A stretch of DNA of 27,337 nucleotides from a virus. The position numbers and the translations under genes are program-made. The stretch is from IMG/VR virus record IMGVR_UViG_3300049740_002426, positions 1 to 27,337 of that record; one strand, 5' to 3'. The notes under the pieces are model-generated. The model ran no database searches and was not told where the DNA came from. It saw only the letters and a list, made by a program, of their open reading frames with translations. Below, piece after piece: positions 6,470 to 25,691 of the stretch; the stretch's first letter is position 1, and each line of letters begins with the position of its first letter.

Positions 6470-6477
6470 TTTACTTG

Positions 6478-6503: not shown

Positions 6504-6514
6504 GTATAATATAC

Positions 6515-10099: not shown

Positions 10100-10134
10100 G
10101 ATGTATTAATTTTTAATGTTTTAGATTTATGTCT

Positions 10135-10144
10135 CAACCGGTTG
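10135..10144 (-). promoter_or_regulatory. CAACCGGTTG palindrome upstream of the Fn3 gene
   Basis: This is an exact copy of the late-gene element, in the 46-bp gap between the nozzle-like gene and the Fn3 gene, followed on the - strand by AGA as in two other copies. Its 3' edge is 36 nt from the ATG at 10099. With TTGAGA as a -35-like sequence and 17 bp of spacing, the -10 position would read AAAAAT, which is weak. Confidence 0.55.
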
Positions 10145-10145
10145 T

Positions 10146-12494
10146 TTAGACCGTATAGTCGAGTTTGAAGGTTGTTCCGTCCGCATGACTAGCGCCTCCA
10201 CGATCGCTGCTTGAGTTGGTGTTGACGTAGCTGTAAGGGTTGAGACCAATATAGAGAAACCAGTTAGAAGAGCTGTAGTTATTGTATTTACCTGTGATAC
10301 CGCAAACTGCCCCATCCGCTTTATACCAGCGCTCAAGCTGATTTATACCCCACCACTTTCCTATTTCATAAGCCCCGGAAGAAGTTTGAGTAATTCTATA
10401 CTGAACATTTTTCCAAGTTCCACTAATTTTTTCGACGGCTTGTAATTCAAAATGCCAAGCACCTGTAGAACTGTTAGTTCCATTAGGTCGCAGGAACGAC
10501 CAATATTGATACTCACTATTTATTCCCAGGTATTTAGAAACACCACCTAAATGGGTACCAGTATATGAATCCCATCCTTCGGGGATTTTATGTGCGTACA
10601 CACTGCCTTGAGATTGATCCCAATAATATGCATCGGTTTGAGCGGAAGCGGCGTGCATAGAGTGATTTGGGAAATAAATATATTGCCCGGTAAATCTTCC
10701 AAGGATGGTTCCATAAACCGGGACACCCGTCAGCATTAATCCGTCACTTAAAACAGCAAAATTATTACCGTTTATGTCTTTAAAGCTGTTTACCCAGTGA
10801 GAAGCTGGTACATAGTTCCAATAATGCTGATCAATATTTGAGCAAGATGTGTCTACTGCTGCGGTAAGCCCGCTAACTGCCCCAGGACTATCCGGCAATG
10901 CGGCGAAAGCATTTACTGCCCCCGGAGCCGTTAAGGCTGCTTGAGCTGTGAATCCCGTAACCATGCCGGGTGCGTCAGGCAGTGCGGATAAACCAGATAC
11001 TGCACCGGGCAAAGAAACGGTTGATGTCAATCCGGTAACAGTTCCGGGAAGATCCGGAGTAGCAGATACTCCGGTAACAGTTCCGGGAAGATCCGGAGTA
11101 GCAGATACTCCGGTAACAGTTCCGGGAGTTTGAATAGATGCAGTCAGTCCCGAGACTTGCCCAGGAGCGTCGGGAAAAGCGGAAAGTCCGGACACGCTGC
11201 CTGGAATCCCGATCGATGCACTCAAGGTTGAAACTTGTCCAGGAGCATCGGGCAAAGCCGACAATCCAGACACACCCCCGGGTAGCTCTAGTTGTGCAAT
11301 AAAATTAGTGGGCTGACCGGGAAGATCAGGTGCCGCAGTTAGAAGAAATGAGCGTCCCGGAAGATCGTTCGCGGAGGCTTTTTTGTTTTCATCGGAACGA
11401 ACAAAAAACCAATACATTCCGCTTTGTGGATCATAGGTTGCGAAAGAATCTGTCAGATCAATAGGTAGTTCTTTTTCCCAAAGACCTTTGGCCTTCCAGC
11501 TTGCTTGATCAGGATCAGCCTGTGATTTTTTATCCTCCGCCCCACGGCTTGAGGATTCGTCCTTATAAATTTGTCCATCATGTCCGAGCCAATAGCTCAT
11601 GGTTCCGCTCTCTCCGCCTACGACCTGCGGGTTCACCGCTGCGGAAAAATTGGTTGCGGGTGCCTGCTCAACTCTGTAGCCCGTTTCCGCTTGGTCGGAG
11701 GATGGAGCGTATAGAAGGTGGCAACCTTTATCGGTATGGACTACTACCTGATCACCTCGGGTCGAAAGTGCGGTAATTTCACTGGCATTTGATCCAAGAA
11801 TATCGACCGTGGAAAGACGCCCACCATAAGCAAGCCCGGCAGGATCTTCAGTTGAATATGGAGAATCTTTTATCGCGTAGGGTGATCCGTTTGGGTCTTT
11901 GGTAATGCCCGCAGGTTCTGAGACATAGACTGTCAGGGGTTTATCCGGATTACCTGAGGCGAAGAGTGTTTTCTTTGGTCCTTGGACGAAGAATTTACAG
12001 TTTGGAAATCTAGACCATTCGTAGCTGTATAATGATTCATCCGGATAAACATCTGTACTCGTAGCCAGAGGCGGTCCTTTACCGATAAAGACGGCTTCTC
12101 CATCACTATCGCCAAATGAAAACAAACGATTTCCAACCGGGCTTAAAACAGCCCTTTCATTACGGTACAAATCGAGCGGGTCGACAACTGAATATGTTGA
12201 AACAAAAATAGAAACTTCCGTGTGCTCCGTAGTCGATAAGGCCATTTCATGAACCTCATTTAGACGAGTGACAAATAGTGCTGAGTTCCCATTTCCATCA
12301 TCAGATGCCAACAACTGATTCTCTTCGTCATGTGAAGATACCTGTACGGAACCAACATTTTTCCACACAGGACCGGAACGCAAGCCGCCCGGCCCAAACG
12401 GCAAGCATCCTTCGACTACACGAAGGCTCCCGCGATCGGCGTCATCGCGATGCGTCTCGATCCCGGTGAAGGACGGTATCCGGAAAAACCTCAC
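10146..12494 (-). CDS. Tail nozzle-like protein carrying a 13-residue repeat array
   Basis: In this 782-aa protein, residues 1-375 resemble the start of a T7 gp12/nozzle-type beta-propeller. It begins FFRIPSFTGIETHRDD, then has repeating blade-like segments (NRLFSFGDSDGEAVFIG, FFVQGPKKTLFASG, STRGDQVVVHTDKGCHLLY, MSYWLGHDGQIY). Residues 379-549 are thirteen tandem PGxVxGLxA units. Residues 550-782 form a compact domain rich in Tyr, Trp, Ser and Asn, perhaps carbohydrate-binding (HYWNYVPASHWVNSF to the C-terminus). The start is GTG at 12494, overlapping the stop of the 54-aa gene (GTGA). A CAACCGATTG element lies 33 nt upstream, inside that small gene. The nozzle assignment is by pattern and position and is not certain. 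Confidence 0.7.
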   Translation of the reverse strand: MRFFRIPSFTGIETHRDDADRGSLRVVEGCLPFGPGGLRSGPVWKNVGSVQVSSHDEENQLLASDDGNGNSALFVTRLNEVHEMALSTTEHTEVSIFVSTYSVVDPLDLYRNERAVLSPVGNRLFSFGDSDGEAVFIGKGPPLATSTDVYPDESLYSYEWSRFPNCKFFVQGPKKTLFASGNPDKPLTVYVSEPAGITKDPNGSPYAIKDSPYSTEDPAGLAYGGRLSTVDILGSNASEITALSTRGDQVVVHTDKGCHLLYAPSSDQAETGYRVEQAPATNFSAAVNPQVVGGESGTMSYWLGHDGQIYKDESSSRGAEDKKSQADPDQASWKAKGLWEKELPIDLTDSFATYDPQSGMYWFFVRSDENKKASANDLPGRSFLLTAAPDLPGQPTNFIAQLELPGGVSGLSALPDAPGQVSTLSASIGIPGSVSGLSAFPDAPGQVSGLTASIQTPGTVTGVSATPDLPGTVTGVSATPDLPGTVTGLTSTVSLPGAVSGLSALPDAPGMVTGFTAQAALTAPGAVNAFAALPDSPGAVSGLTAAVDTSCSNIDQHYWNYVPASHWVNSFKDINGNNFAVLSDGLMLTGVPVYGTILGRFTGQYIYFPNHSMHAASAQTDAYYWDQSQGSVYAHKIPEGWDSYTGTHLGGVSKYLGINSEYQYWSFLRPNGTNSSTGAWHFELQAVEKISGTWKNVQYRITQTSSGAYEIGKWWGINQLERWYKADGAVCGITGKYNNYSSSNWFLYIGLNPYSYVNTNSSSDRGGASHADGTTFKLDYTV
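10848..11360 (-). repeat. Thirteen tandem 39-bp units (PGxVxGLxAxxDx)
   Basis: The units encode 13 residues each (one has 15) of the form PG-x-V-x-G-L/F-x-A-x-P-D-x. Copies at 11032-11070 and 11071-11109 are identical at the DNA level, showing recent expansion, while others differ at many positions. This is coding DNA within the nozzle-like gene. Open frames on the opposite strand across it are by-products. Confidence 0.9.
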
Positions 12495-12655
12495 TTCTTA
12501 TCTTTAGAAGCGTTATTGTACGGGAACAATCGGTTGAGTTTTTCCTGTCGGCGTTTACAAGCATCGCACTGACGAATTCTCAATGCCTCGGTTACTTTTT
12601 TTATTGAATCACCGAGTCCTTTGGACGGCTCGTTTGGTTTTTGGTCTTTGGTCAT
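12491..12655 (-). CDS. Small CxxC protein between tail genes
   Basis: ATG at 12653-12655, stop at 12491-12493, 54 aa. It contains IRQCDACKRRQEKLNRLFPY, a CxxC pair followed by a basic helix, a pattern I associate with small phage structural-region proteins of unknown role (possibly metal binding). Its stop overlaps the GTG start of the nozzle-like gene, and it starts 3 bp after the stop of the 397-aa gene. This packing supports it being real. Confidence 0.7.
   Translation of the reverse strand: MTKDQKPNEPSKGLGDSIKKVTEALRIRQCDACKRRQEKLNRLFPYNNASKDKK
12527..12536 (-). promoter_or_regulatory. CAACCGATTG element upstream of the nozzle-like gene
   Basis: This is an exact match to CAACCGRTTG on the - strand, inside the coding sequence of the 54-aa gene. 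Its 3' edge is 33 nt from the GTG at 12494. Counting 17 bp after TTGTTC gives TAAAGA, a fair -10 sequence, which would place transcription start close to the start codon. Confidence 0.55.
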
Positions 12656-12657
12656 AT

Positions 12658-13851
12658 CTAGCTAAGCGTTAAAGTTGTTGGACCCGAGTAAGTAGTCGGA
12701 GGGTTTGACCCCGTTACTTTTACAGAAGTCACCGGAGGTGGGTACTGACCTAAAGTCGGATTACCAACATCATTCGCACCCTCTCCGGCGGCAGGAATGT
12801 ATTCTTTTTGAAATACTAAAGTGTATTGATCCGATATATTCACATAATTTACAGTAACCTGTGTTACATAGCCGCTCGGATAGGTAGCCGTATTAGCCGC
12901 TTGTTTAGTGATTATGCTATAATTAAATGTTTTAGTATCGTGTGGAGCATTCACCTGATCGGTTTCGTCATATTCAACACCGTAATTCGAGGCACAGTTT
13001 GGGCTAGTATAATTTCCAGTTGGTACCGGTACTGCAACGATTGGTGATGTAGAAGGACTAAGACCGTCGATAGAAGATATTTGAAGGGTAACAGAACTCG
13101 CACAGGAGGGATCATCATCGCAGCAGCAGGGAAGATATATAGTCGAGGTGATCGGAGTTCCCTGCGTAGGACTGCTTACACTTTTTAAAAGACCGTCCTG
13201 AAAAGTCAGAGTTTTTTCAGTAACCGGAAATGTGAGATTTAGAATAGTCTGATCGCCGCTACAATTTGCCGTATGTGTGGGAGTTCCGAGTACCGATTCA
13301 ATAACATCACCCGTGTGCCCTGTAGTATCGCCACCACCCTGCCCCGGACATGTATACCACGCGACAAATTGCATTATTTTTGTAGTACCTCGTAGGATAG
13401 AAGATCCTATTTTGATTCCCGCTACAGGGTTAGATTCCTGCAAATCCTCATCAGTCACCACACACATTCCAATATAATAGCATGCGTCTGGATATGTAAC
13501 AGTACCCCCGCTATCAGTTTCTTCGGAATCGTTACACAGGAGAACCAAAACATCCCCATGGGATATCATTCGTTTATTGTTGGCAGTGTCGTTTCTATAT
13601 TCCGCGGCCTGACTAAACGCTTCCTGTGCTTTTTCTACCGAATCGACATCCGCACAGCTTGAAAAGTTCGTTTCAGAGATATCGATCCAATGCAAAAAGA
13701 ACTCGTTAGAGGAAGAAGTTAGCTCGATAAAACCAAGATCTTCCGCAACCTCGGACATGTCAGAAGATTCTTCTAACTCTTCAAGCTTTAACTCTACTTC
13801 CTGAAGCTTTTCCTGAAGCTCTTCGAGCAGTCTCTTATCATCATCCAACAT
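12658..13851 (-). CDS. Probable virion protein with N-terminal coiled coil
   Basis: In this 397-aa protein, residues 1-32 (LLEELQEKLQEVELKLEELEE) form a clear heptad coiled coil, suggesting an oligomer. The rest is rich in Thr, Ser, Gly and Cys (for example ANCSGDQTILNLTF and YLPCCCDDDPSC) with predicted beta character. This fits a secreted-like fibre or tail decoration, but no family is recognised. The ATG overlaps the last codons of the 443-aa gene by 11 bases. Confidence 0.6.
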   Translation of the reverse strand: MLDDDKRLLEELQEKLQEVELKLEELEESSDMSEVAEDLGFIELTSSSNEFFLHWIDISETNFSSCADVDSVEKAQEAFSQAAEYRNDTANNKRMISHGDVLVLLCNDSEETDSGGTVTYPDACYYIGMCVVTDEDLQESNPVAGIKIGSSILRGTTKIMQFVAWYTCPGQGGGDTTGHTGDVIESVLGTPTHTANCSGDQTILNLTFPVTEKTLTFQDGLLKSVSSPTQGTPITSTIYLPCCCDDDPSCASSVTLQISSIDGLSPSTSPIVAVPVPTGNYTSPNCASNYGVEYDETDQVNAPHDTKTFNYSIITKQAANTATYPSGYVTQVTVNYVNISDQYTLVFQKEYIPAAGEGANDVGNPTLGQYPPPVTSVKVTGSNPPTTYSGPTTLTLS

Positions 13852-15172
13852 AGGTCATGCTTACCCGCCATATTTTCCGGTTATCGGCACTGTCTGCACT
13901 GGTAAAAATGGGTGACACTTGTACACCTGCTATTGTCGCATACGAAGAAGTGTTATTGTATGTATGAACCCAAGATATCGTTCCACCACCGCGTATCATC
14001 GGAGTAGCCTGATATAAAGGTAGTTGATCAGGATCAACTTTTAAGACGCCACTACCGCCAAAAGATTGATAGTTTCCGTTAAGTGTAATCTTTCTTTCAC
14101 TACCGGAATAAGTAGCGGCAGAGACATCACCACCAGCGGATTTCGGAAATCTAATATCAGTGTTAAGTTTGTGAAGAAATACGGCATTGGGGATTAGTTG
14201 TTTATGCCCAGTGCTGGTATTGGATCCTTCATGTGCGGTAAATCGAATGTCTACGAAAACAGAGGGTGTCAGATTTCCAGTTCCGCCCCAATAGGATGAA
14301 AAATTAGCAGGCACAGTGTCCGCGACTACGAAGAAATTAAATTGCGCAATTTGATTGTAAGTCGATCCACCGCTACCTGTTCCAAAATCAACAATACGCA
14401 GTCCGTCTTCGTCAAAGGATACAGTCTTCGGCGGTTTGAAACCTGAGGATTTACCTTGTTTTACCCCCGCACTCCAATAAGGAGCGGCGTGGGTTACCCA
14501 TTCAACACTCCAGACATCAACACCCGGCTGAGACATAGATACCTGGGCAGAACCCTTGAGCCAGTTGCCAGTATTTACATCGGTTCTTCCGTTCAGAACA
14601 TCATATAAGTTTTGGTCGTGATCTCCGTTAGTGTCGTAGCCGACACCCGGATTTTTGGATATTGGTTTGTTAGTAGGTAAAGCGATCTGCCCGGGATCAT
14701 CCCCGTATGCTACGGAGATTGGAGGGGTTTTAACGGATGTAGGTGCGTAGCTCCAAGGTTCATAACCACCGTTATTTTGCGGATGGTTATTAAACTCGGA
14801 ACTGTTATATCCTAGACTGTGTATTGCGCGAAGAACAACAAAGGTTCGACGAACTCGTCGGACATCATTGGTTGTTACAACGGATTCCTGAACATGTGTA
14901 TCCCGAATCTCAACAAATTCTCTAGTTAAATATGCAGTATCAACGGATCCCTGCTTAGGGGCGATTTTCTGATTTACCAAATAATGATCGGTAAATTCCT
15001 CATCGGCGGTTCCGACAGCCAGGAATAATGGATTGCTCGAATCATTGATACCGGCATAGCTAGCCCTATAGCCTTCGACCACATACTGTCGGACTATGCG
15101 CTGATAACCTACCTGATCATCCTTGGTTACCTGAGGACGACCGAGAAGCCTGATTGTCAGGTCTTTGGCCAT
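13841..15172 (-). CDS. Unrecognised virion protein between adaptor and tail genes
   Basis: This 443-aa protein begins MAKDLTIRLLGRPQVTKDDQ. A mainly beta sequence follows, with many Asn, Ser, Gly and Tyr. Segments such as FVEIRDTHVQESVVTTNDVRR and IVDFGTGSGGSTYNQIAQFNFFVVAD suggest a folded structural protein rather than a low-complexity fibre. It lies 4 bp after the adaptor-like gene and overlaps the coiled-coil gene. By position it could be a tail or head-tail joining component. No motif settles this. Confidence 0.6.
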   Translation of the reverse strand: MAKDLTIRLLGRPQVTKDDQVGYQRIVRQYVVEGYRASYAGINDSSNPLFLAVGTADEEFTDHYLVNQKIAPKQGSVDTAYLTREFVEIRDTHVQESVVTTNDVRRVRRTFVVLRAIHSLGYNSSEFNNHPQNNGGYEPWSYAPTSVKTPPISVAYGDDPGQIALPTNKPISKNPGVGYDTNGDHDQNLYDVLNGRTDVNTGNWLKGSAQVSMSQPGVDVWSVEWVTHAAPYWSAGVKQGKSSGFKPPKTVSFDEDGLRIVDFGTGSGGSTYNQIAQFNFFVVADTVPANFSSYWGGTGNLTPSVFVDIRFTAHEGSNTSTGHKQLIPNAVFLHKLNTDIRFPKSAGGDVSAATYSGSERKITLNGNYQSFGGSGVLKVDPDQLPLYQATPMIRGGGTISWVHTYNNTSSYATIAGVQVSPIFTSADSADNRKIWRVSMTYVG

Positions 15173-15176
15173 GGCA

Positions 15177-15929
15177 TTACCAGCCTACCCGGCGGGTCAA
15201 ACGAAGTGATCCTTTATGCTTCTGAGGAGTGACTAATGTCCGTAATCTTTTTCTCGCCTCTTCCGCCATACGAGCAATAAATTCTTTATTTGCGCCATTA
15301 TATCTCGGGTCGGAAAGTAGTTTTGCCTGTGCAATCGGGTACATAATATCCCACACGAGTTCGCCAGGAATTCTCGGTTTATCGGTATTCGCACTTAATG
15401 GGTCGGGAATAATATTGGCATAGACTTCGACATCATACGCCTTATCAGGGATCGGATATAAATAAAATCGCGGGATTACATCTCCGTCACTTCCATCATC
15501 ACGATTATCCAAATAATACCAGATAGGACGGCCAACTTCCGCTTCATTTTCCTTGTACATGGGAAAGCTCAATCCTCGACCGGATGGTGCTCTAAAATCC
15601 CATGAGAAAATAGAACGGGCACGAATCTCAGCCTCAGGGCCGCTCATTGGAGATAGCGGGCCCTCCCCTACTAATACTGGAATTTTATCAACAGATGTTA
15701 CTTGTTTCGGAAGAGATACTCCCGCCTGCATTTCAGTAAAGGACAGCGTAAACTTTTTCTGCGCCCACATCGCCCGTCGGCCATCAATCGGATTGTAGCA
15801 TTCACGATGTGCCTGATTGATACATATCTCCAAACGGTTTTGATCGACCGGTGGAAGATCGTCCGCTTCGTCCGCTCCAAGCATAGACGCAAGCTGATCC
15901 TTGAGAGCTTTGAAAGTGATATCGATCAT
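15177..15929 (-). CDS. Head-tail adaptor-like protein (T7 gp11-like by position)
   Basis: This 250-aa protein starts MIDITFKALKDQLASMLG. The N-terminal helices contain RLEICINQAHRECYN, then a beta region with PRFYLYPIPDKAYDVEVYANIIPDPLS. A helical C-terminus follows (LVWDIMYPIAQAKLLSDPRYN..EFIARMAEEARKRLRTL). This layout, with 'x-YPxPD-x-Y-xVxVxA' in the middle, is typical of phage tubular/adaptor proteins that attach to the portal. It follows the capsid gene, as gene 11 does in T7. A CAACCGGTAG element lies 33 nt before the ATG, followed by TAATAT at -10 spacing. Confidence 0.65.
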   Translation of the reverse strand: MIDITFKALKDQLASMLGADEADDLPPVDQNRLEICINQAHRECYNPIDGRRAMWAQKKFTLSFTEMQAGVSLPKQVTSVDKIPVLVGEGPLSPMSGPEAEIRARSIFSWDFRAPSGRGLSFPMYKENEAEVGRPIWYYLDNRDDGSDGDVIPRFYLYPIPDKAYDVEVYANIIPDPLSANTDKPRIPGELVWDIMYPIAQAKLLSDPRYNGANKEFIARMAEEARKRLRTLVTPQKHKGSLRLTRRVGW

Positions 15930-15938
15930 TAAAAAATA

Positions 15939-16238
15939 TTAGGAAACCGCCAGCTCTTCCGCTACCGGTTGACTTTTGGCCTTCGGCTTACGGGCTTTGG
16001 CCTTTGGCTTAGGCTCTTCGGTTTTGGTCTCAAGATATACGGAAAAGAACATGGTCTTATAAAGTTTACCCTGAGTCCGAAAGATATCATCTATTTGCTT
16101 TTGGTTCTCAGGCTCGAAAGCAAAATGTCTGATCTCTTTGTCCCAAACGAAATTGTAACGGACTTGGCTCATACCTTTTACGCGAATATTGGGTGTAGCA
16201 CCCATTTGATTACTTTTTCCTAATATTATGATCTTCAT
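15939..16238 (-). CDS. Hypothetical 99-aa protein with basic Pro-Lys tail
   Basis: The N-terminal 70 residues (MKIIILGKSNQMGATPNIRV..VWDKEIRHFAFEPENQKQIDDIF) look folded. The tail KPKAKARKPKAKSQP is highly basic and probably binds nucleic acid or is flexible. It sits immediately after the capsid terminator, so its expression appears to depend on read-through. By place it may be a head completion or decoration protein. Family not recognised. Confidence 0.55.
   Translation of the reverse strand: MKIIILGKSNQMGATPNIRVKGMSQVRYNFVWDKEIRHFAFEPENQKQIDDIFRTQGKLYKTMFFSVYLETKTEEPKPKAKARKPKAKSQPVAEELAVS
15962..15971 (-). promoter_or_regulatory. CAACCGGTAG element upstream of the adaptor-like gene
   Basis: Nine of ten bases match CAACCGGTTG. 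It is inside the 3' end of the 99-aa gene, 33 nt before the ATG at 15929. A TAATAT hexamer follows at the 17-bp spacing measured from TAGCGG. Confidence 0.45.
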
Positions 16239-16240
16239 TG

Positions 16241-16280
16241 TATATAAAAAGCCTCTCCCCAGCGAATGCCGAGGAGAGGC
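16241..16280 (-). terminator. Intrinsic terminator after the major capsid gene
   Basis: On the - strand, GCCTCTCC and GGAGAGGC (16251-16258 and 16273-16280) form an 8-bp stem with a 14-nt loop, followed by TTTTTATATA (16241-16250). It lies 42 bp after the capsid stop and only about 3 bp before the start codon of the next gene. T7 likewise has a terminator just after its capsid gene. Confidence 0.8.
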
Positions 16281-16321
16281 CGGTTTGATTGGTTATGGGG
16301 AGGGAAAAATCCGTTCCATTA

Positions 16322-17809
16322 CTACTGAGTCAAGGACAACCCAGGAACCTGACGAACAACTTCAACAAGTTGTACGGAAGGAACTCTTCCACGGGTGTCA
16401 TGACGAGCAGCCATACCATAGACAGACTGAACACCAACAGCAGAGAGGTGTGCCTCATTTCCGCTGTTTGCGAAGTCGTCGTAGTGGAAGATTTGCTCAC
16501 CGTAGATCTTACCTTTCGCCATGTACATAGCGTCTTTACCCATAGCGAGTGCGTAACCGATAGGAGTACCGATTTCATTAGCTTGGACAAACAATGCGCC
16601 AGCTGCGAAAGCGTCACCCACTTTAACATTTCCGGTCAATCCACCGTCACCAGCAACACGACTTAAGGTAATCGCGCCGAGGTCAGCAGAAACATTGTTG
16701 TGGTCGTACTCGTAGAGTGCAACTTCACCGTTGGTGTCGATACCAAGGACATAGAAAGTTCCGTTGTCGTTAGTACCCATTGCAACTCCGCCTCCACCAG
16801 GGATACGAACTTGTACACCACGGAAGTTAGCTGCGTAATCTCCGTCATTTCCACCAAGTGCGCCAGCGGCAGTTGCGTCAGCAATTGCACTGTATGCATA
16901 GAAGGTAGGAAGAAGAGGAGAACCTTGACGACCGCGAGCGGTGTCGATTACTACATTGTGGTTAGCAATGATGTTGTTATCCCACTTGGCATAGCTTCCG
17001 GAATAGAGCTTGTTGTCTGCACTGCGAACATCAGCAGATGTGATAGCTTCGAGGTAGTCGGGGTCAGAACGCAGAGGGCGTAAGCATGCGTCAGGAGCGA
17101 AGAATAAGTAACCAGGAATTTCTTGGTTTTGGTCTCCGCCAGTTTGCATAGGCTCAGCACCGTTAGCGATCAATGCTTGCTTAGCTTCTTGGATGATGTC
17201 GGTACTTAATCCGTCAACATATTTAAGAGCTCCGCTAGCGCCGGTTCCGTATCCAGAAATGAAGTTGGATCCAGTAGCGTGTTTCAAGCAGATTTGACGA
17301 AGCGCGTATTGGATTTGGTCCTGCTCGGTACGACTCATCCACTCGGACATAACCTCAGCAGAAAGCTGATCGATGGTTTTGCCGGTGAAGCGCATAAGCT
17401 TAAGAACTTGAGTCCAGGATACTGCGTGACGAACGAGATCAACCTCAACGGAGAAAGTTCCGAAGTCGAGGGTATCTGTAGCATTCTTGAGGATTTCTTC
17501 CCCACGAACACCTTGTCCACGGATAGGAGCAACAGTAGTGAAAGTCACTTTGTCGCTTCCGCCAGCGGATAGGTCGCGTTTCTCAGTAATAGGAGCTCCG
17601 CTTCCTTCGCCACCGATGAACTTTGCGAAGATATTCTTTTCTCTTGCGTCACGAGATACGAGCTCAGACCAAAGTCTTGAACGCAAATCGGAGTTAGGAC
17701 CTGAGAGCAGATCCTGATAAGAGGTAGTGTTAGATACGAGATCAACATTGCCGGCAGCTTGTGCTGCTGCAATGGGATCTGGGTTTGCTGGTATGCTTTT
17801 AATAGCCAT
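16322..17809 (-). CDS. Major capsid protein, N4gp56-like family
   Basis: This 495-aa protein is expected to form the head shell. The key signature is KVTFTTVAPIRGQGVRGEEIL followed by TDTLDFGTFSVEVDLVRHAVSW, matching the 'GqGvrG-(n)-LeG.e..L.f....V.vd..rhav' core of N4gp56/DUF4043 capsid proteins. The later GYLFFAPDACLRPLRSDPDYLEA and AYSAIADATAAGALGGN fit the same fold. It directly follows the scaffold gene (41-bp gap) and ends before a terminator. The leader is AT-rich without a Shine-Dalgarno. Its even codon-level composition compared with neighbours suggests an abundant product. Confidence 0.85.
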   Translation of the reverse strand: MAIKSIPANPDPIAAAQAAGNVDLVSNTTSYQDLLSGPNSDLRSRLWSELVSRDAREKNIFAKFIGGEGSGAPITEKRDLSAGGSDKVTFTTVAPIRGQGVRGEEILKNATDTLDFGTFSVEVDLVRHAVSWTQVLKLMRFTGKTIDQLSAEVMSEWMSRTEQDQIQYALRQICLKHATGSNFISGYGTGASGALKYVDGLSTDIIQEAKQALIANGAEPMQTGGDQNQEIPGYLFFAPDACLRPLRSDPDYLEAITSADVRSADNKLYSGSYAKWDNNIIANHNVVIDTARGRQGSPLLPTFYAYSAIADATAAGALGGNDGDYAANFRGVQVRIPGGGGVAMGTNDNGTFYVLGIDTNGEVALYEYDHNNVSADLGAITLSRVAGDGGLTGNVKVGDAFAAGALFVQANEIGTPIGYALAMGKDAMYMAKGKIYGEQIFHYDDFANSGNEAHLSAVGVQSVYGMAARHDTRGRVPSVQLVEVVRQVPGLSLTQ

Positions 17810-17850
17810 TGTATTTAGTAATTATTGGGTGATGATAGTTGATACCCAGA

Positions 17851-18906: not shown

Positions 18907-18920
18907 ACTGCGAAGATATA

Positions 18921-18948
18921 CACCGGTTTACAAAAAAGTAACCGGTTG
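18921..18948 (-). promoter_or_regulatory. Paired CAACCGG-type elements upstream of the scaffold-capsid unit
   Basis: CAACCGGTTA (18939-18948, nine of ten) ends 33 nt before the scaffold start. A second, weaker copy, AAACCGGTGT (18921-18930), lies 18 bp further on. The short gap contains no Shine-Dalgarno. A TATATC/TATCTT sequence lies at the -10 position. Confidence 0.5.
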
Positions 18949-18953
18949 GGAAC

Positions 18954-19091: not shown

Positions 19092-19094
19092 CGT

Positions 19095-19247: not shown

Positions 19248-19663
19248 GAGGTTTCTTGTTTAGATAATTTTTTTACAAAATGTCTTCCATACCAGAAATG
19301 GAATATGAAATAGAGTCCTGTGGCTAATGCGGATATCATCAGTATGTCATATATACCATCCACAGTCTTTTCGAACCACCCCTTGTGCTCATCCATCTTA
19401 ATTTTCACGAGCTCTTCAACATCTCCTTTGCTTATAGCTTCCGCTTTTTTTATCGCGGCCTTTACTTCAGCTTCTGACTTTAATACTTCTCCGCTGGCCG
19501 CTCCAGCGAATGCTCCTAATGCCCCGCCCGCCGGGCCTCCGAGAAGTGCTCCTGTACCCCCGCCAACCGTAGCTCCCAAGGTTGGGTACAATGTTTTCAT
19601 GCTACATCCTCCTAGCAATGCCAGGAGAATAACCAGGAATATATAAATAAGGACTACACGCAT
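19244..19663 (-). CDS. Lipoprotein-like, glycine-zipper membrane protein
   Basis: This 139-aa protein begins MRVVLIYIFLVILLALLGGC, a lipoprotein signal peptide with lipobox LGGC (Cys20). The next region is a Gly/Ala zipper (TLGATVGGGTGALLGGPAGG ALGAF). Then comes a charged helix (EVLKSEAEVKAAIKKAEAISKGDVEELVKIKMDE, split here only by reading), and a second membrane span (ILMISALATGLYFIFHFWY) with a basic end. It may act in the envelope during lysis or DNA entry. It begins right after the terminator at 19675-19711 and is coupled to the holin-like gene. Confidence 0.65.
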   Translation of the reverse strand: MRVVLIYIFLVILLALLGGCSMKTLYPTLGATVGGGTGALLGGPAGGALGAFAGAASGEVLKSEAEVKAAIKKAEAISKGDVEELVKIKMDEHKGWFEKTVDGIYDILMISALATGLYFIFHFWYGRHFVKKLSKQETS

Positions 19664-19674
19664 GGGAGATAGGG

Positions 19675-19711
19675 TAAAAAAAGGGGTCAGAGGATTACCC
19701 TCCGACCCCTT
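19675..19711 (-). terminator. Intrinsic terminator after the coiled-coil fibre gene
   Basis: On the - strand, AAGGGGTC-GGAGGG pairs with CCTCT-GACCCCTT around a small loop (19681-19711), followed by a run of seven T (19676-19682). It lies 26 bp after the fibre stop and about 12 bp before the start of the lipoprotein-like gene. There is no room for a separate promoter between them. Confidence 0.85.
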
Positions 19712-19736
19712 AAGAGATTCAATAGGCGATTAAACC

Positions 19737-20741
19737 TTATGCGTTCAACGCAGAGGTAAATTCAGCCAACGATCCAAGGTTGTCTGCTCCGACATAAACA
19801 TCAGAAACTTTGATGTCCATAAGCTCAGCGTTTGAGTCGTCGCCAGAGATGTCAGTTGATGTAGAGGTAGCGGAAGTTTTGTAGCATACGAACTTGTCTT
19901 CACCTTCGTCGAATACCAATGCAACATTGTCTTCGCTGGCTCCACGCTCCATGATCAATCCAACATCATTTGCGTTGTTGGATGAGTCACCTGCTCCGTC
20001 ATTGAGAAGCATGATGGAGTCTTTAACCTGAGAGTTAACGGTTTCCAAGCTGGTGGTTGTACCTTGAACGGTCAAGTTACCGCTAAGAACCAAGTTGGTT
20101 CCAGAAACATCACCGGTAAACGATGCACCGGCAAGATCAGCCTTGATGTTGTCAAGGTTGGTTACTGCTGCTGCACGGGTAGAAGCTTCAGCGGAAACTG
20201 CTGCGATACGAGCGGTCTCTTCGTCAGAGATTGCAGTAGCGTTAGCAGATTCGGCGGCTCTAGCGGTGCTTGCTTCAGCGTCGATGTTGCTTTGAAGAGT
20301 AGTGTCAGCAGAAGATCTGGCGGTCGCTTCAGCAGTAACTGCAGCAGCACGATCAGAAACCTCAGTTGCTAAGTTAGTGGTAAGAGTCGAGTCAGCAGCG
20401 ATACGAGCAGTCTCTTCGTCGTCGATGTTACTTTGAAGAGTGGTATCAGCAGATGAACGAGCAGATGCTTCAGCAGAAACTGCGTTGGTACGATCAGTAA
20501 CTTCTTGAGCGAGGTTAGAGGTCAATACACCTTCAGCTGCGGTTGCACGAGTTTCCTCGTCGCTGATTGCGGTTGCGTTAGCTGCTTCAGCTGCACGAGC
20601 GGTGCTCGCTTCTGATGCAAGATTGGTGGTGAGGGTACTGTCAGCGGCGATACGAGCTGCTTCTTCAGCAGAAATCGCGGTATTAACGCCGTCGATTTTA
20701 CCTTTAACTGCACTACCGATTTGTGAGAGAATATTGGACAT
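19737..20741 (-). CDS. Long coiled-coil tail fibre-like protein
   Basis: In this 334-aa protein, residues 1-20 (MSNILSQIGSAVKGKIDGVN) share an opening with the 171-aa and + strand 64-aa proteins. Residues 20-205 are repeats such as DEETARIAADSTLTTNLATE and VTAEATARSSADTTLQSNI, an Ala/Ser/Thr/Glu heptad pattern seen in trimeric phage fibres. The C-terminal 130 residues (FTGDVSGTNLVLSGNLTVQGTTT onward) look like a beta-rich tip or chaperone-like domain. A CAACCGATTG element lies 98 nt upstream. A strong terminator follows. Confidence 0.8.
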   Translation of the reverse strand: MSNILSQIGSAVKGKIDGVNTAISAEEAARIAADSTLTTNLASEASTARAAEAANATAISDEETRATAAEGVLTSNLAQEVTDRTNAVSAEASARSSADTTLQSNIDDEETARIAADSTLTTNLATEVSDRAAAVTAEATARSSADTTLQSNIDAEASTARAAESANATAISDEETARIAAVSAEASTRAAAVTNLDNIKADLAGASFTGDVSGTNLVLSGNLTVQGTTTSLETVNSQVKDSIMLLNDGAGDSSNNANDVGLIMERGASEDNVALVFDEGEDKFVCYKTSATSTSTDISGDDSNAELMDIKVSDVYVGADNLGSLAEFTSALNA

Positions 20742-20805
20742 AGCTTATATAGATATGGGTTAGATTAATCTGGGTTAAAAAGAGATGAGACTGCCCACCT
20801 CCAAG

Positions 20806-20814
20806 TGCTATAAT
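20806..20814 (+). promoter_or_regulatory. Extended -10 promoter for the + strand islet
   Basis: TGCTATAAT matches the extended -10 consensus TGnTATAAT exactly. The -35 region at the expected distance (about 20786) is poor, as is common for this promoter class. Transcription would begin near 20821 and leave a leader of about 70 nt containing the tandem CAACCGRTTG sites. TAATACTC (20811-20818) and GAGTATTA (20873-20880) form an 8-bp inverted repeat spanning that leader. Confidence 0.6.
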
Positions 20815-20838
20815 ACTCGGACAGGCAGACCCTATTCT

Positions 20839-20858
20839 CAATCGGTTGCAACCGGTCG
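20839..20858. promoter_or_regulatory. Tandem CAACCGRTTG sites between the fibre gene and the + strand HTH gene
   Basis: CAATCGGTTG (20839-20848; its complement is CAACCGATTG) is directly followed by CAACCGGTCG (20849-20858, nine of ten). A weaker AACCGG core is at 20863-20868. This is the only tandem occurrence in the window. It sits in the leader of the + strand helix-turn-helix gene and 98 nt upstream of the - strand fibre gene, where it could serve both directions. Confidence 0.6.
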
Positions 20859-20890
20859 CTAGAACCGGAAATGAGTATTACTAATCGTTT

Positions 20891-21073
20891 ATGGTCGCAA
20901 AAGAAATTCGCTACCTTTCACCAAGAAAGATCCGAGAACGCATGGATGTTTCCGCTGGCACTGTTCGTAGATGGGCAAAACAATACGGATGGGAAAGGAA
21001 AAATATTAACGCTCGTGTGATCCGATACTTGGCCACGGATGTTGAGCAAAGCCTGGGGGTATCTTTCGAATGA
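20891..21073 (+). CDS. Small helix-turn-helix DNA-binding protein
   Basis: This 60-aa protein has PRKIRERMDVSAGTVRRWAK at residues 11-30, a compact helix-turn-helix of the MerR/excisionase type, flanked by basic residues (WERKNINAR). It lies alone on the + strand inside the virion block and shares a 4-base overlap with the next + strand gene. It has an extended -10 promoter upstream and tandem CAACCGRTTG sites in its leader. I infer it may bind that element and control the late genes that carry it. An alternative is a packaging factor (the terminase small subunit class also has such helices). Confidence 0.65.
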   Translation: MVAKEIRYLSPRKIRERMDVSAGTVRRWAKQYGWERKNINARVIRYLATDVEQSLGVSFE

Positions 21074-21264
21074 GTGATCTCGCCAGTCTGATTGGAGGAT
21101 CCGTTCGATCGAGCAAAGGGGTTGTCAAAATCGTGGCGACAGAGGGTATTATAAAAGCAAGAACTTCTGATCCATTAGGATCTCTCGCATTGGGATCCGA
21201 TACCAATAAGCTCTACATATATACCGGGGCCGGCTGGCTTGTTATAAATACCAGCCCTGCGTAA
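21070..21264 (+). CDS. Mini fibre-like protein with NGxxW-type module
   Basis: This 64-aa protein has an N-terminus, MSDLASLIGGSVRSS, that parallels MANILSSLGSAVAT and MSNILSQIGSAVKG of two - strand fibre genes. Its C-terminus, GSLALGSDTNKLYIYTGAGWLVI, is one copy of the 'DTNxLYIYxGxxW' module found in four - strand proteins. This resemblance supports real coding on the + strand. A G-rich run nine bases before the ATG may serve as the ribosome site. Its 3' end overlaps the convergent 107-aa gene by 23 bases. Confidence 0.65.
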   Translation: MSDLASLIGGSVRSSKGVVKIVATEGIIKARTSDPLGSLALGSDTNKLYIYTGAGWLVINTSPA

Positions 21265-21565
21265 GCGAACGCATTGCGGATACCGCAAAAGGGAGAGATC
21301 GGGCGTCTAATCGATCGACCCGAATATTTGCATTCTTTGTCCCCATTCTCGGGGTTCCCTCTTCTTCAAAAGGATATATAAGATCACGCACAAAATCATG
21401 TGCTCCGTTTCTTTTTAACCAGCTCCAATAATTTGATCTTGTACCCTCCTCGCATTCAAGGAGTACATCGAGCTGCCGGAATACCGTCGCGTAAAGCGTT
21501 GCATCCCGAAAGGCTGTGATTGAGGACGGAGGCTCACAGAGTGTGGCCTCAATCCTCAGGATCAT
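21242..21565 (-). CDS. Hypothetical 107-aa protein
   Basis: It starts MILRIEATLCEPPSSITAF, followed by a mostly helical sequence with Arg and aromatics (NYWSWLKRNGAHDFVRDLI). Unlike its neighbours it has no LamG, NGxxW or collagen features. It is the last gene of the adhesion module before the + strand islet, 1 bp after the stop of the 76-aa gene. It could be a fibre assembly helper. Not recognised. Confidence 0.5.
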   Translation of the reverse strand: MILRIEATLCEPPSSITAFRDATLYATVFRQLDVLLECEEGTRSNYWSWLKRNGAHDFVRDLIYPFEEEGTPRMGTKNANIRVDRLDARSLPFAVSAMRSLTQGWYL

Positions 21566-21566
21566 G

Positions 21567-21797
21567 TTATTCTACAGGAAGCTCCTCGGCCCACTCAGAA
21601 CCTGAGAGAATCTCAAGGATCTCGGAATGAGAGTGGGCAGGCTTTCCAGCCAAGAATGCAGGGGCTGATCCTTCAAATTTTACGAAGGTCTTAGATCCAT
21701 CAACTGAAAATCTTAAAGTATTTGCTGAGGTTTCTAGAACCTGATTAAAATCGACCGAAGAAACTTCGGAGGCGTCAATGATTACATAATTTCTCAT
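21567..21797 (-). CDS. 76-aa protein, paralogue of the 22671-22904 gene
   Basis: MRNYVIIDASEVSSVDF and TLRFSVDGSKTFVKFEGSAP are shared almost word for word with the copy one gene pair upstream; about 80 percent of residues agree overall. Differences cluster at the C-terminus (KPAHSHSE versus KQSYDHAE). It always follows a LamG gene, so it may be a dedicated chaperone or subunit of that protein. No known family. Confidence 0.7.
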   Translation of the reverse strand: MRNYVIIDASEVSSVDFNQVLETSANTLRFSVDGSKTFVKFEGSAPAFLAGKPAHSHSEILEILSGSEWAEELPVE

Positions 21798-21802
21798 AGC
21801 TA

Positions 21803-22666
21803 TTAAGAGGGTACTGTTGTTGAAAATGTAGGACCATTTGTGAGAGTACCGTCGTTACCTCCGCTACCCTGATCAGTTATAGTCGTGCCTGTACCACTTT
21901 CATAATCCCCCATTCTCCACCAACCGTCAGGTGAGTAAGAAGTCAAATCCGCTGGTACACCGCTATTGTAAATGTCAGTTAAGTTTTGCGAGGTTAAACC
22001 GGAATCCCAAATCGCAACCTCATCTAATAAGCCCTGGGTGGCGTAATTCGAGTTATGCACTGCCATCACCGCCACATTATCGAAATCTGTTCCTGAAATT
22101 ATTGAAGTAGCAACTTGAGAGCTGTATGATCCCGTGTTACCGCTGTTCAAGATTGCGTTAGGTGCGGTCACACCGTCTATGATTATGTCATACGATGAAC
22201 CATTATGATTTAAACCTATGAGATGCCAACCGGCAGTGAGTTTATCACCATTAACAGGCGCGTCGAATTGAGTTCGATAGGATGTGGTGTAAAGTCCCAA
22301 AAGGTTTTTTGGTGTACCCCAATAGCCCCAAAGAATACCTCCTGCACTACCACCAAAACTCGCAAGATACTTTGCAAGGCTATTAGAGTGGATTCCATTC
22401 GTGCTAGTGACATTGACCCAAAATAACATCGCCCCTAATGAGCGTCCCGCAGTACCTAAGTTCCCCAAAGCGATAACGTCATTAGTGCCATCAAAGTTTA
22501 CGCTGTACTGATTTGGGAATGTTGCCGCGCCGGTGCCATCGCTCTCGAGCTCGACCCATCCGTAACCATTATATACGATAAAGGAATTCGTGTCTGTTTC
22601 GAAGTATGCCTTGCCGAGGATCTCGGAGGCTGTGCTTCTGTTTGCTATTACATCTACTGTTGCCAT
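21803..22666 (-). CDS. LamG-domain adhesin (copy 2)
   Basis: In this 287-aa protein, residues 15-40 carry one 'ETDTNSFIVYNGYGWVELES' module. Then NQYSVNFDGTNDVIALGN opens a concanavalin-like LamG fold (residues about 50-225) with GWHLIGLNHNGSSYDIIIDG and GLLDEVAIWDSGLTSQNLTDIYNSG. The tail is SYSPDGWWRMGD..GSGGNDGTLTNGPTFST. Such domains bind glycans, so this is likely a receptor-binding virion protein. It lies 4 bp after one 77-aa gene and 5 bp before the next. Confidence 0.8.
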   Translation of the reverse strand: MATVDVIANRSTASEILGKAYFETDTNSFIVYNGYGWVELESDGTGAATFPNQYSVNFDGTNDVIALGNLGTAGRSLGAMLFWVNVTSTNGIHSNSLAKYLASFGGSAGGILWGYWGTPKNLLGLYTTSYRTQFDAPVNGDKLTAGWHLIGLNHNGSSYDIIIDGVTAPNAILNSGNTGSYSSQVATSIISGTDFDNVAVMAVHNSNYATQGLLDEVAIWDSGLTSQNLTDIYNSGVPADLTSYSPDGWWRMGDYESGTGTTITDQGSGGNDGTLTNGPTFSTTVPS

Positions 22667-22670
22667 GATA

Positions 22671-22904
22671 TTATAATTCCTCCATTGGTGCGGTCCATTC
22701 GGATCCGGATAAAATTTCTAGAATCTCTGCGTGATCATAAGATTGCTTTCCGGCAAGAAATGCTGGGGCTGATCCCTCGAATTTTACGAAGGTCTTAGAT
22801 CCATCAACCGAGAATCTTAAAGTTTCTGCCGAGGTTTCAAGGACGTTATTAAAGTCAACAGAAGGAACTTCCGATGCGTCGATGATTACGTAGTTTCTGC
22901 TCAT
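22671..22904 (-). CDS. 77-aa protein, paralogue of the 21567-21797 gene
   Basis: It starts MSRNYVIIDASEVPSVDFNN and is nearly the same as the downstream copy through SKTFVKFEGSAPAFLAGK. Its last residues (SGSEWTAPMEEL) include SGSEW, which is also found in the NGxxW modules of neighbouring proteins. It follows the other LamG gene by 6 bp. Function unknown. Confidence 0.7.
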   Translation of the reverse strand: MSRNYVIIDASEVPSVDFNNVLETSAETLRFSVDGSKTFVKFEGSAPAFLAGKQSYDHAEILEILSGSEWTAPMEEL

Positions 22905-22910
22905 AGTATT

Positions 22911-23759
22911 TTAAGTTGGTACGTCAGTTGAGAAAGTTGGGCCGTTTGTTAGCGTTGCGTCGTTACCACCGCTTCCTTGGTCTGTTATGGTTGTACCTGT
23001 TCCCCCATCATTGTCGCCCATACGCCACCAACCAACTGGCGAGTAAGAACTCAAGTCATCGGGTACTCCGCTGTTATAAATTGCTGTTATATCGGAAGAG
23101 GATAAACCTTGGTTCCAATAAGCAACTTCATCCACTTTACCTTTGTGATACCAATTTCCTTTACCAATCAGCATTTTGTCACTCCGACTTACAAGCGAAC
23201 CGGCATTTGTCCTTTGACCAAGTTGCGATCCGTTTAAATAAGTTGTGACTGTACTACTTCCATCCCAAGTAACGGCTAGATGCGACCATGTTCCTTTTGG
23301 AAGTAATGTTACGCTGTTATCAATTGTCTGCGAACCGTGATACCATCTAATCAAATGGGAAGTGCTTCCCATCCAATACTCATCTGTTAAATACCATCTC
23401 AGGTATGGGTAAATTGCATTGGTATCGGCACTGGCATAAGCTCCACCTAGCCAATTTGTAGTACCACCATTACTAGGTAAACTCGGAACATCTTCACGCC
23501 ACATCCAACCCGAAAAGGTATAACCGTTAGCCATATCATCGTAGTCAATTAGCGATGCTGATGTGATTACATGGTCATTAGAACCATCAAAGTCTACGCT
23601 GTATTGATTTAGGAATGGCGAAACATCGGAATTGAAAACCTTCCATGCTGATCCGTTCCATAACTGAACAGCGTTATCATCTGTGTTTAAAACGAGATCC
23701 CCGGATTGAGGCGTTAAATTGGCAATTTCTGCCGTGGTATATGTGTTAATATCGGTCAT
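22911..23759 (-). CDS. LamG-domain adhesin (copy 1)
   Basis: In this 282-aa protein, residues 12-42 carry an NGxxW module (SGDLVLNTDDNAVQLWNGSAW). NQYSVDFDGSNDHVITSA opens the LamG fold. GTWSHLAVTWDGSSTVTTYLNG and GKVDEVAYWNQGLSSSDITAIYNSG are the conserved strands, and SYSPVGWWRMGDNDGGTG ends it. It differs most from copy 2 between residues 60 and 150, the part expected to be exposed. A role in host-surface binding is inferred. Confidence 0.8.
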   Translation of the reverse strand: MTDINTYTTAEIANLTPQSGDLVLNTDDNAVQLWNGSAWKVFNSDVSPFLNQYSVDFDGSNDHVITSASLIDYDDMANGYTFSGWMWREDVPSLPSNGGTTNWLGGAYASADTNAIYPYLRWYLTDEYWMGSTSHLIRWYHGSQTIDNSVTLLPKGTWSHLAVTWDGSSTVTTYLNGSQLGQRTNAGSLVSRSDKMLIGKGNWYHKGKVDEVAYWNQGLSSSDITAIYNSGVPDDLSSYSPVGWWRMGDNDGGTGTTITDQGSGGNDATLTNGPTFSTDVPT

Positions 23760-23765
23760 AACTAA

Positions 23766-24281
23766 TTAGGAATCGTTGTTATAAATGTGCCACTCTGATC
23801 CGGAGTAGATATAGAGATCATCGGTATCCGTTCCGTACATGATGTCTCCGGCGGATGGGCTTTCGAGAGCCACGATATTTGATTCTGTATCGCCGGATAA
23901 ATTAATGGTTGCGGTGATAGTAATGAAATCTGCATTTACAGTATCGATTGTAGTCGCTGCCCATGCGGATCCGTTCCATATATAAATATTGCTGGTATCG
24001 CTAGCGACTGCGACTGCACCCAGAACACTGCTGGTGCTGGCTAAAATGTTTGACTGTGTATCATCAAGTGTAACCGTTACATCAGCAAAGGTTGCTACAT
24101 AACTGGCATAGCTTCCGATTTTAGATTCCAGGGTTTCAACCTGTCCTAAGTTAGCTGCGTGATTAGATGCGGAGGGATCCTGGACGACAAGAGCACCGGT
24201 CATGGTACCGCCTTCCAAAGATAATTTCTCCCCAAGCTTGGTTGCTACTGCTGATCCTAAAGATGATAAAATATTGGCCAT
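23766..24281 (-). CDS. Small fibre-like protein with two NGxxW modules
   Basis: This 171-aa protein has the shared opening MANILSSLGSAVATK (residues 1-15) and a T4 short-fibre-like MTGALVVQDPSASNHAANLGQVETLE. Two tandem modules follow: LGAVAVASDTSNIYIWNGSAW and AGDIMYGTDTDDLYIYSGSEW. The 64-aa + strand gene looks like a condensed version of it. A CAACCGATTG element is 53 nt upstream. It is likely a fibre or collar component. Confidence 0.7.
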   Translation of the reverse strand: MANILSSLGSAVATKLGEKLSLEGGTMTGALVVQDPSASNHAANLGQVETLESKIGSYASYVATFADVTVTLDDTQSNILASTSSVLGAVAVASDTSNIYIWNGSAWAATTIDTVNADFITITATINLSGDTESNIVALESPSAGDIMYGTDTDDLYIYSGSEWHIYNNDS

Positions 24282-24333
24282 AGAGATGTGTGATTAAGGT
24301 TTAGTGAATATTCAGGGAGAACCTGATCTTTCT

Positions 24334-24343
24334 CAATCGGTTG
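24334..24343 (-). promoter_or_regulatory. CAACCGATTG element upstream of the 171-aa gene
   Basis: This is an exact copy in the 71-bp gap between the 87-aa and 171-aa genes, followed by AGA as in two other copies. TTGAGA, 17 bp, GAATAT can be read as -35 and -10. The distance to the start codon is 53 nt. Confidence 0.5.
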
Positions 24344-24352
24344 GCTGATTTT

Positions 24353-24616
24353 TTATTCTCCGCCATCCAGTGCGGCGAGAAATGATCCAACATCCAGATT
24401 ATCAGAGACTTCCTTGAAAGAATTTAGACTGACGGGGGCATCCTGTACCATTTCTGTCACCGTTTGTGAGTTGGCTGCTACCTGATTATTGAGCTCTTCC
24501 ATCTCCTGCTTGGTCATAAATAAATCAATTACCCGACCTACTGTATTATTTACACTCGTAACAGTTTGTGGAGAATCGTTGGCCCCGGCACTGTTGTGTA
24601 CTTTAATATCCCCCAT
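24353..24616 (-). CDS. Hypothetical 87-aa adhesion-module protein
   Basis: The N-terminus, GDIKVHNSAGANDSPQTVTSVNN, is beta-like. The rest is helical (MTKQEMEELNNQVAANSQTVTEMVQ), ending with SLNSFKEVSDNLDVGSFLAALDGGE. 'LNSFKEVSDxL' recalls the trimerisation segment of some phage fibres. Its start touches the collagen-like gene's stop. Function not known. Confidence 0.55.
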   Translation of the reverse strand: MGDIKVHNSAGANDSPQTVTSVNNTVGRVIDLFMTKQEMEELNNQVAANSQTVTEMVQDAPVSLNSFKEVSDNLDVGSFLAALDGGE

Positions 24617-25368
24617 TACGCTCCGTTAATATGGTGCCACGCAGTTCCGTCATGAATATAGAGATGATCGCCGTTAACATCAGAATATCTAAATGCTCCC
24701 GCCGTCCCGGATGTAGGATCATCTGCAAACGAGCTGTCGCCAATATCAAGAGAGTCAACGGATAAAGGTTCGATCGCTTTCCCAAATTCAATAAATCCTG
24801 TGCCCTGCCAAATTTTATATATTCCGATGTCAGAAACATAGAAGGTGTCTCCTACGGTTAAGTCCGAAAGTGTGTGCGTGTACGAGCTTGTGATTATTTC
24901 TGCGGATGCTTGCAAGGAGCTCAGCCAATCGGCCTCGGTTCCCGCAAAACCGTTTGCAACAGCTATCTGATACGCGGAATCTCCGCCTGGTCCGGCGGCT
25001 CCATCCGCTCCATCTGCCCCATCGGCTCCATCAGCTCCTTGAGGCCCGATTGCTCCGTCAGCTCCATCGGCTCCGGCAGGTCCTTGAGGCCCGATTGATC
25101 CATCGGCTCCATCGGCTCCGGCAGGTCCGGCAGGTCCTTGAGGCCCAACTGCTCCGGCGGATCCGGCCAATGAGGCTAGCCACTGGGGCTCAGTTCCCAC
25201 AAAACCGTTTGCGACAGCTATCTGATAGGCGGAATCACCGTCAGCTCCACTCGATCCAGCAGGTCCCGCGGGTCCGGCGGGTCCTACGCCACCACCGCCG
25301 CCGCCACCGCCGCCAGCCGGGGGAGCGCCTACATAAGTGATAGTTTGAGTACTGTTTCCGTAGCGCAT
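24616..25368 (-). CDS. Collagen-like fibre protein
   Basis: In this 250-aa protein, residues about 17-26 are a run of Gly, then GPAGPAGPAG triplets. Next comes a DSAYQIAVANGFVGTEPQWL module, a longer Gly-X-Y block (about residues 75-130, many GADGADG), and the module again (DSAYQIAVANGFAGTEADWL). The C-terminal part has GDTFYVSDIGIYKIWQG and an NGxxW-like HLYIHDGTAWHHI. Collagen triplets give rigid trimers in phage fibres. The repeated flanking module suggests the block was inserted into a pre-existing tail gene. A CAACCGGTTG element is 34 nt upstream. Confidence 0.85.
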   Translation of the reverse strand: MRYGNSTQTITYVGAPPAGGGGGGGGGVGPAGPAGPAGSSGADGDSAYQIAVANGFVGTEPQWLASLAGSAGAVGPQGPAGPAGADGADGSIGPQGPAGADGADGAIGPQGADGADGADGADGAAGPGGDSAYQIAVANGFAGTEADWLSSLQASAEIITSSYTHTLSDLTVGDTFYVSDIGIYKIWQGTGFIEFGKAIEPLSVDSLDIGDSSFADDPTSGTAGAFRYSDVNGDHLYIHDGTAWHHINGA

Positions 25369-25400
25369 GAGAATACTATAATTTTAGAGGGGTTAAGCCA

Positions 25401-25691
25401 TCAACCGGTTGCGCCGCGCTTGACCTTGAACAGCTCAGGATGTTTTACTTTCCGGTTTTTTGCTTCTACCTTTAGCGTTTTTTCTGCAAGAGCCATCGGT
25501 GATAACGCTTCAAGTGCGTTAATGACTGCTTTGATGTGTAAAGTCTCCTCGGGGGTAGTGTCACGATCGAGCATTTTGGCGAGATACCGGCTTCTTTCTT
25601 TTTGAAAGCGTTTTTCAAGATGGATAAAAGCTTCATCGGTCGTTAATTTTTTTATGTCAGCAAGCTGATCAAACACTACTAGATCGGTCAT
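25401..25691 (-). CDS. Hypothetical 96-aa helical protein
   Basis: It starts MTDLVVFDQLADIKKL; the middle is Arg/Lys/Glu helical (FIHLEKRFQKERSRYLAKML), with a basic tail (KNRKVKHPELFKVKRGATG). Helical and charged, it looks like a small head or connector accessory rather than a fibre. Its last codons overlap the CAACCGGTTG element. It starts 5 bp after the 413-aa gene. Confidence 0.55.
   Translation of the reverse strand: MTDLVVFDQLADIKKLTTDEAFIHLEKRFQKERSRYLAKMLDRDTTPEETLHIKAVINALEALSPMALAEKTLKVEAKNRKVKHPELFKVKRGATG
25402..25411 (-). promoter_or_regulatory. CAACCGGTTG element upstream of the collagen-like gene
   Basis: This is an exact palindrome covering the final codons of the 96-aa gene, 34 nt before the ATG at 25368. 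TTATAG lies at the 17-bp spacing measured from TTGATG. No Shine-Dalgarno is present before the start. Confidence 0.5.

Follow-up and report, generated by a model that had tools for sequence, protein, structure and literature searches.

A palindromic upstream element marks a putative class of leaderless late promoters in an uncultured phage lineage

In the T4 late factors gp55/gp33 and in SigO-RsoA of Bacillus subtilis, the region-2 and region-4 functions are carried by separate proteins, and T4 gp33 does not bind DNA. Our study concerns IMG/VR record IMGVR_UViG_3300049740_002426, a 27,337-nucleotide (nt) fragment of an uncultured phage (the window, analysed over its whole length), in which the palindrome CAACCGRTTG stands upstream of late genes at a near-fixed distance from their start codons. 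At the middle promoters of T4, a phage box (the MotA box, used in sigma appropriation by AsiA/MotA) replaces or overlaps the -35 while the sigma-70 -10 is kept (PMC7403470). The late promoters of phiKZ (TATG) and AR9 (AACA-N6-TA/G) are short motifs fixed relative to the start and read by phage multisubunit polymerases (PMC5312081). In Deinococcus-Thermus, promoters with a -10 at a fixed distance before the open reading frame (ORF) yield leaderless mRNA (PMC12340547). We consider it likely that CAACCGRTTG serves as the upstream element of late promoters of a phage-specific class, at which a palindrome-bound protein would recruit or redirect the host RNA polymerase.

The DNA polymerase, deoxynucleoside monophosphate kinase and integrase genes of the window lie on the plus strand and the virion genes on the minus strand. 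Five exact copies of the element were found, against 0.10–0.17 expected per simulated window (Markov models of order 1–4; maximum of 2 in 200), which is far beyond chance; the initial annotation of this DNA had given an expectation of about 0.08. Allowing one mismatch gave 16 matches in the window, compared to 3.5 in dinucleotide shuffles. All five exact copies that the annotation had listed were recovered, as were its two near-copies before 15929 and 18906, and all seven starts that it had marked stood; an eighth, divergent site on the plus strand had been overlooked. The sites are listed below, the gap being the number of bases between element and start codon and proteins being measured in amino acids (aa).

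10135-10144, minus strand: element CAACCGGTTG; -10 AAAAAT at 10109-10114; start 10099 (89-aa gene), gap 35 nt
12527-12536, minus strand: element CAACCGATTG, within the 54-aa ORF at 12491-12655; GTG start 12494, gap 32 nt (32 nt in 9 of 10 records)
15962-15971, minus strand: element variant CAACCGGTAG; -10 TAATAT at 15936-15941; start 15929 (SU10-adaptor-like, 250 aa), gap 32 nt (32 nt in 9 of 11 records)
18939-18948, minus strand: element variant CAACCGGTTA; -10 TATCTT at 18913-18918; start 18906 (351 aa, upstream of the major capsid gene), gap 32 nt
20839-20848, minus strand: element CAACCGATTG; -10 GAGTAT at 20813-20818; start 20741 (334 aa), gap 97 nt
20849-20858, plus strand: divergent element CAACCGGTCG, abutting the copy at 20839-20848; -10 TACTAA at 20879-20884; ATG at 20891, gap exactly 32 nt
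24334-24343, minus strand: element CAACCGATTG; -10 GAATAT at 24308-24313; start 24281 (171 aa), gap 52 nt
25402-25411, minus strand: element CAACCGGTTG; -10 TTATAG (or TATAGT, one base further along); start 25368 (250-aa collagen-like tail protein), gap 33 nt

The distances originally reported (36, 33, 98, 53, 34, 33 and 33 nt) follow the same pattern, but each exceeds the number of intervening bases by one. The overlap of TTGAGA-like sequence with the element was likewise seen, as TTGA at the 3' end of several copies, with a weak -10 17 bp beyond. The seven starts were checked for a Shine-Dalgarno sequence and, as had been claimed, none has one. Three copies, rather than two, lie inside upstream coding sequence: those at 12527 (the 54-aa ORF), 15962 (ORF 15939-16238) and 25402 (ORF 25401-25691).

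The architecture was examined in relatives of the phage, which are public virus contigs, several of them 67–71 kb long. The pattern was present in 19 of 20 relatives and a reversed-pattern control gave 0. Around 30 mutually diverged CAACCGATTG sites only two features of the flanks departed from randomness, an A immediately behind the element and a hexamer (NANNNT) exactly 20 nt on, which had A at position 2 in 26 sites, A at position 5 in 21 and T at position 6 in 25. A two-part matrix of element and -10 found 38 sites at or above 16 bits in 11 records and none when those sequences were reversed. The spacing to ATG or GTG was sharply defined: exact elements lay at 32 nt in 34 start contexts and at 33 nt in 4, with almost none elsewhere, and with one mismatch there were 111 contexts at 32 nt compared to a mean of 1.5 at other spacings. 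Below 32 nt almost none occurred in the real data, and control sequence gave 0 at 32 nt.

The 20 nt, the 6-base -10 and a further 6 bases add up to 32, which puts the start codon at the start point (+1) of a sigma-70 polymerase. A hard edge at 32 nt, which the initial annotation did not see, is expected if a start codon cannot precede the transcript start and is hard to explain otherwise. The features of leaderless promoters are thus present in the sequence, with the start codon about 6 nt past the -10 and no Shine-Dalgarno, and the geometry suggests that most sites would give leaderless mRNAs; the members with gaps of 52 and 97 nt would have leaders of roughly 20 and 65 nt. A pattern scan of all viral contigs returned 32 loci, 18 of them from this phage family, and the rest look like background.

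The element is also conserved at homologous starts, which, together with its register to the -10, would be expected of a late promoter class. A search of the relatives, which had been suggested as a check, found the element before the SU10-adaptor-like gene as CAACCGGTAG (CAATCGGTGG in the most distant record) at 32 nt in 9 of 11 records, before the 351-aa gene in 10 of 11 (as CAACCGGTTA at 32 nt in eight and at 33–34 nt in two more) and before the ~1000-aa gene at 32 nt in 9 of 10. The spacing and these homologous starts support the original proposal of a promoter element for late genes whose messages are nearly leaderless. Record G820 was held out and used in building nothing; in it, five late genes (351-aa-type, adaptor, ~1000-aa, 106-aa and post-terminase) have the same geometry with a gap of 32 nt, four of these sites preceding homologues of genes already tabulated. 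No element was found before the DNA polymerase, helicase, exonuclease, integrase, sigma-like, HTH95 or major capsid genes, and the polymerase of G016 had a single weak match, 105 nt away. In the window, two strong intrinsic terminators on the minus strand (16250-16281 and 19681-19711) end about 12–18 nt before the next starts (16238 and 19663), and the genes that begin behind them have no element. Early-region variants (CAACGGATTG, CATTCGATTG and CATTCGGTTG; G820:25090 on the minus strand, G008:7120 and G014:8022) lie 32–33 nt before small genes, with the left half degraded and TTG retained.

Where the element falls within the 54-aa ORF, its codons read CTC-AAY-CGV-TTG in all 25 distinct contexts, which are mutually related and do not represent 25 independent events. 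The two Leu codons were CTC in 25 of 25 and TTG in 25 of 25, although these make up 14% and 16% of Leu codons in the genomes, and the adjacent Phe and Pro codons vary freely. Selection on this copy acts on the DNA as well as on the protein.

The divergent site, which had gone unnoticed, lies exactly 32 nt before its ATG and abuts the minus-strand element. The two genes that it faces are as follows (HTH, helix-turn-helix).

20891-21073, plus strand: 60-aa HTH protein; weak HTH_23/terminase small subunit-like match; kept in 6 of the 11 records examined
21070-21264, plus strand: 64-aa ORF, overlapping the HTH gene by 4 bases and probably forming one operon with it

The divergent layout with the 32-nt geometry is repeated in ~20 relatives, and in G017 one perfect palindrome stands between the two divergent genes. 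Because of the spacing to ATG 20891, the layout kept in relatives and the lone palindrome of G017, the abutting pair at 20839-20858 is to be read as two predicted promoters placed back to back, not as a tandem operator.

Of the 62 diverged sites in promoter orientation that have the form CAANCGNTTG, 29 were CAACCGATTG, 15 CAACCGGTTG, 6 CAATCGGTTG, 5 CAAGCGGTTG and only one CAATCGATTG, which means that at least one half is usually GGTTG. In some functional-looking sites the right half is broken (GTAG, GTTA) and the left half intact. This half-site pattern fits a dimeric binder better than a plain -35.

Taken together, we propose that in the commonest geometry the element would cover -42 to -33, its last three bases (TTG) opening a TTGA-type -35, with a sigma-70-like -10 (NANNNT) over -12 to -7 and the ATG or GTG as +1, giving a leaderless message; in a few genes the start codon would lie further downstream than +1. 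A sequence-specific protein, probably a phage dimer, would bind the palindrome, and host RNA polymerase would be recruited or re-directed to the late genes, activation rather than repression being the presumed outcome. The abutting copies would drive transcription both ways.

Candidate regulators, which the initial annotation did not see, were sought in the relatives. A protein of 76–195 aa, the C-terminal part of which is sigma-70 region 4, was present in 10 of 10 records covering the locus (nine in the alignment, plus G820), its gene lying in the early region just upstream of the helicase gene. Its recognition helix, GVTRERVRQ, is invariant across the alignment, its region 4.2 HTH scores above the curated cut-off and among PDB entries the protein matches region 4 of sigmaA/RpoD; the fold match is weak by E-value, with a very high probability for sigmaA domain 4. 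Region 2 (PF04542) was found in 0 of 12 records, with the control positive in 10 of 14, and so neither a complete sigma-70 factor nor a region-2 partner was found. The region-4-only protein is favoured since its helix is the same as in factors that bind TTG(A)-type -35s, and should itself prefer TTG(A); we regard it as the regulator only tentatively. More doubtful still is the full scheme in which this reduced sigma would pair on head-to-head CAACC/GGTTG -35 half-sites, make a palindromic -35 for the host polymerase and fire late genes singly or divergently as leaderless messages. The element was not found in unrelated records with a sigma-4-like stretch. A second candidate lies in the window with its partner gene.

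5932-6219, minus strand: 95-aa HTH protein, encoded by every relative that covers the locus
6188-6469, minus strand: 93-aa partner gene of the 95-aa HTH gene; promoter TTGACA-N17-TACAAT, first base 6543

The promoter of this pair is near-consensus, is the only conserved host-type promoter found and is kept in five relatives; this part of the window (6188-6543, minus strand) is possibly an immediate-early or lysogeny module. A fold search with the 95-aa protein gave generic HTH matches only. Two further proteins were discarded: the 60-aa HTH protein as a universal regulator, as it is absent from G002 (which is continuous across its ends) and from other carriers of the element, and a 54-aa ribbon-helix-helix-like early protein, as G017 has six perfect palindromes but the protein was not found there.

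Several observations weigh against our interpretation. Variant copies also precede a few early-region genes, and the restriction to late genes is therefore not strict; some members would have long leaders (gaps of 52 and 97 nt). The palindrome is 10 bp with half-sites ~7 bp apart, which is tight for two HTH heads, and -31 was never C in 30 sites, though a sigma-70-type helix would favour TTGAC. The gene for the region-4-only protein is outside the window and is tied to the element by co-occurrence only, and the 95-aa HTH protein is just as universal. In an alternative arrangement the palindrome would be an operator: a phage repressor would cover the -35 at late promoters, in the lysogen or early infection, and host sigma-70 would read them otherwise. 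The phage encodes an integrase and has a tRNA-Leu half that resembles attP, the only conserved host-consensus promoter belongs to a small HTH gene that is universal, and a palindrome over the -35 is in the classical operator position. However, operators usually wander, and this element stays in a single fixed register to the -10; the replication genes have none. The core promoters are also poor compared to the host consensus, and near-consensus sigma-70 promoters (TTGACA and TATAAT) showed no excess over shuffles in the late region, which suggests that the late promoters need help; we judge an operator unlikely.

Slightly less likely again, a primary or alternative host sigma could read the element as an extended -35 without any phage regulator. 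The TTGA right half, the 17-bp spacer and the NANNNT -10 are all sigma-70-like, but the CAACC half is as conserved as the right and can stay intact when TTG is broken (CAACCGGTAG, CAACCGGTTA), and a host -35 has no symmetric upstream half. That a phage-encoded RNA polymerase, T7-like or virion type, should read a promoter so phage-specific and tightly spaced is very improbable: PF00940 matched in 0 of 9 records in a search that had no positive control, the giant virion-type protein has no polymerase domain and the -10 appears sigma-dependent. We give equally little credence to a function other than promoter, such as an RNA element, a replication or packaging signal or a modification site. The element is palindromic and repeated, but it is oriented with the gene strand, fixed in spacing to the -10 and the starts and absent elsewhere, and an inverted repeat without a loop makes an RNA hairpin impossible. 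A late promoter class with a palindrome-bound activator is thus the reading that we prefer.

Compared to the described systems, these putative promoters resemble T4 middle promoters in having a phage box over the -35 and a host-type -10, although we do not claim membership; they differ in the box itself, a 10-bp palindrome spanning -42 to -33, in serving late genes and in having the start codon at the predicted +1. No relatives of MotA or AsiA appeared in the Pfam and PHROG scans run, which included no search aimed at those families. A phage protein with region 4 alone recalls the split sigma systems, but no region-2 partner was found here (PF04542, 12 records), and unlike T4 gp33 the protein retains an intact DNA-recognition helix. 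A short motif fixed relative to the start is shared with phiKZ and AR9; however, the -35/-10 layout here is sigma-like, and no phage polymerase was found by the uncontrolled PF00940 search of nine records. The -10 at a set distance from the start codon is shared with the leaderless promoters of Deinococcus-Thermus, which are cellular and have no palindromic -35 element. A literature search found no paper naming CAACCGGTTG as a phage motif. What is new is that a palindromic -35 is combined with leaderless geometry, with divergent use and with a region-4-only candidate.

Other features of the phage were also recorded. The 68,374-bp record G002 is probably complete and circularly permuted, as it starts and ends within the same 699-aa gene. 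A 44-nt 5' half of a tRNA-Leu (CAA anticodon) gene at 6565-6608, which adjoins the integrase and is conserved in relatives, is probably attP. Whole-window megablast and capsid/portal tblastn gave no match to phage records (0 portal/capsid relatives among 50,697), and portal relatives were found only in short contigs of two metagenome-assembled genomes of different phyla. The tRNA-Leu half had no match with up to 3 mismatches in those two genomes, and none of 398 and 395 genomes sampled from the two phyla contained it exactly. The 250-aa tail-type gene (24616-25368) contains collagen-like repeats with a 9-nt period at 24902-25284. A tandem duplication of ~1.1 kb at 21587-23132 has copied 76-aa and 287-aa genes as 77-aa and 282-aa genes (71–78% DNA identity). 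Record G001 encodes a 3,693-aa virion-type polyvalent protein (L084:14116-20000, L085:1-5397) with LPD38 and a weak ADP-ribosyltransferase-like stretch.

In summary, the element offers a sequence-only readout of the late regulon in an uncultured phage lineage. It predicts transcript starts to the base, with many virion proteins made from leaderless messages. Should the region-4-only protein prove to be the regulator, this would be sigma-based promoter switching in a minimal form, and a simple system in which to ask how region 4 by itself can re-target a polymerase.

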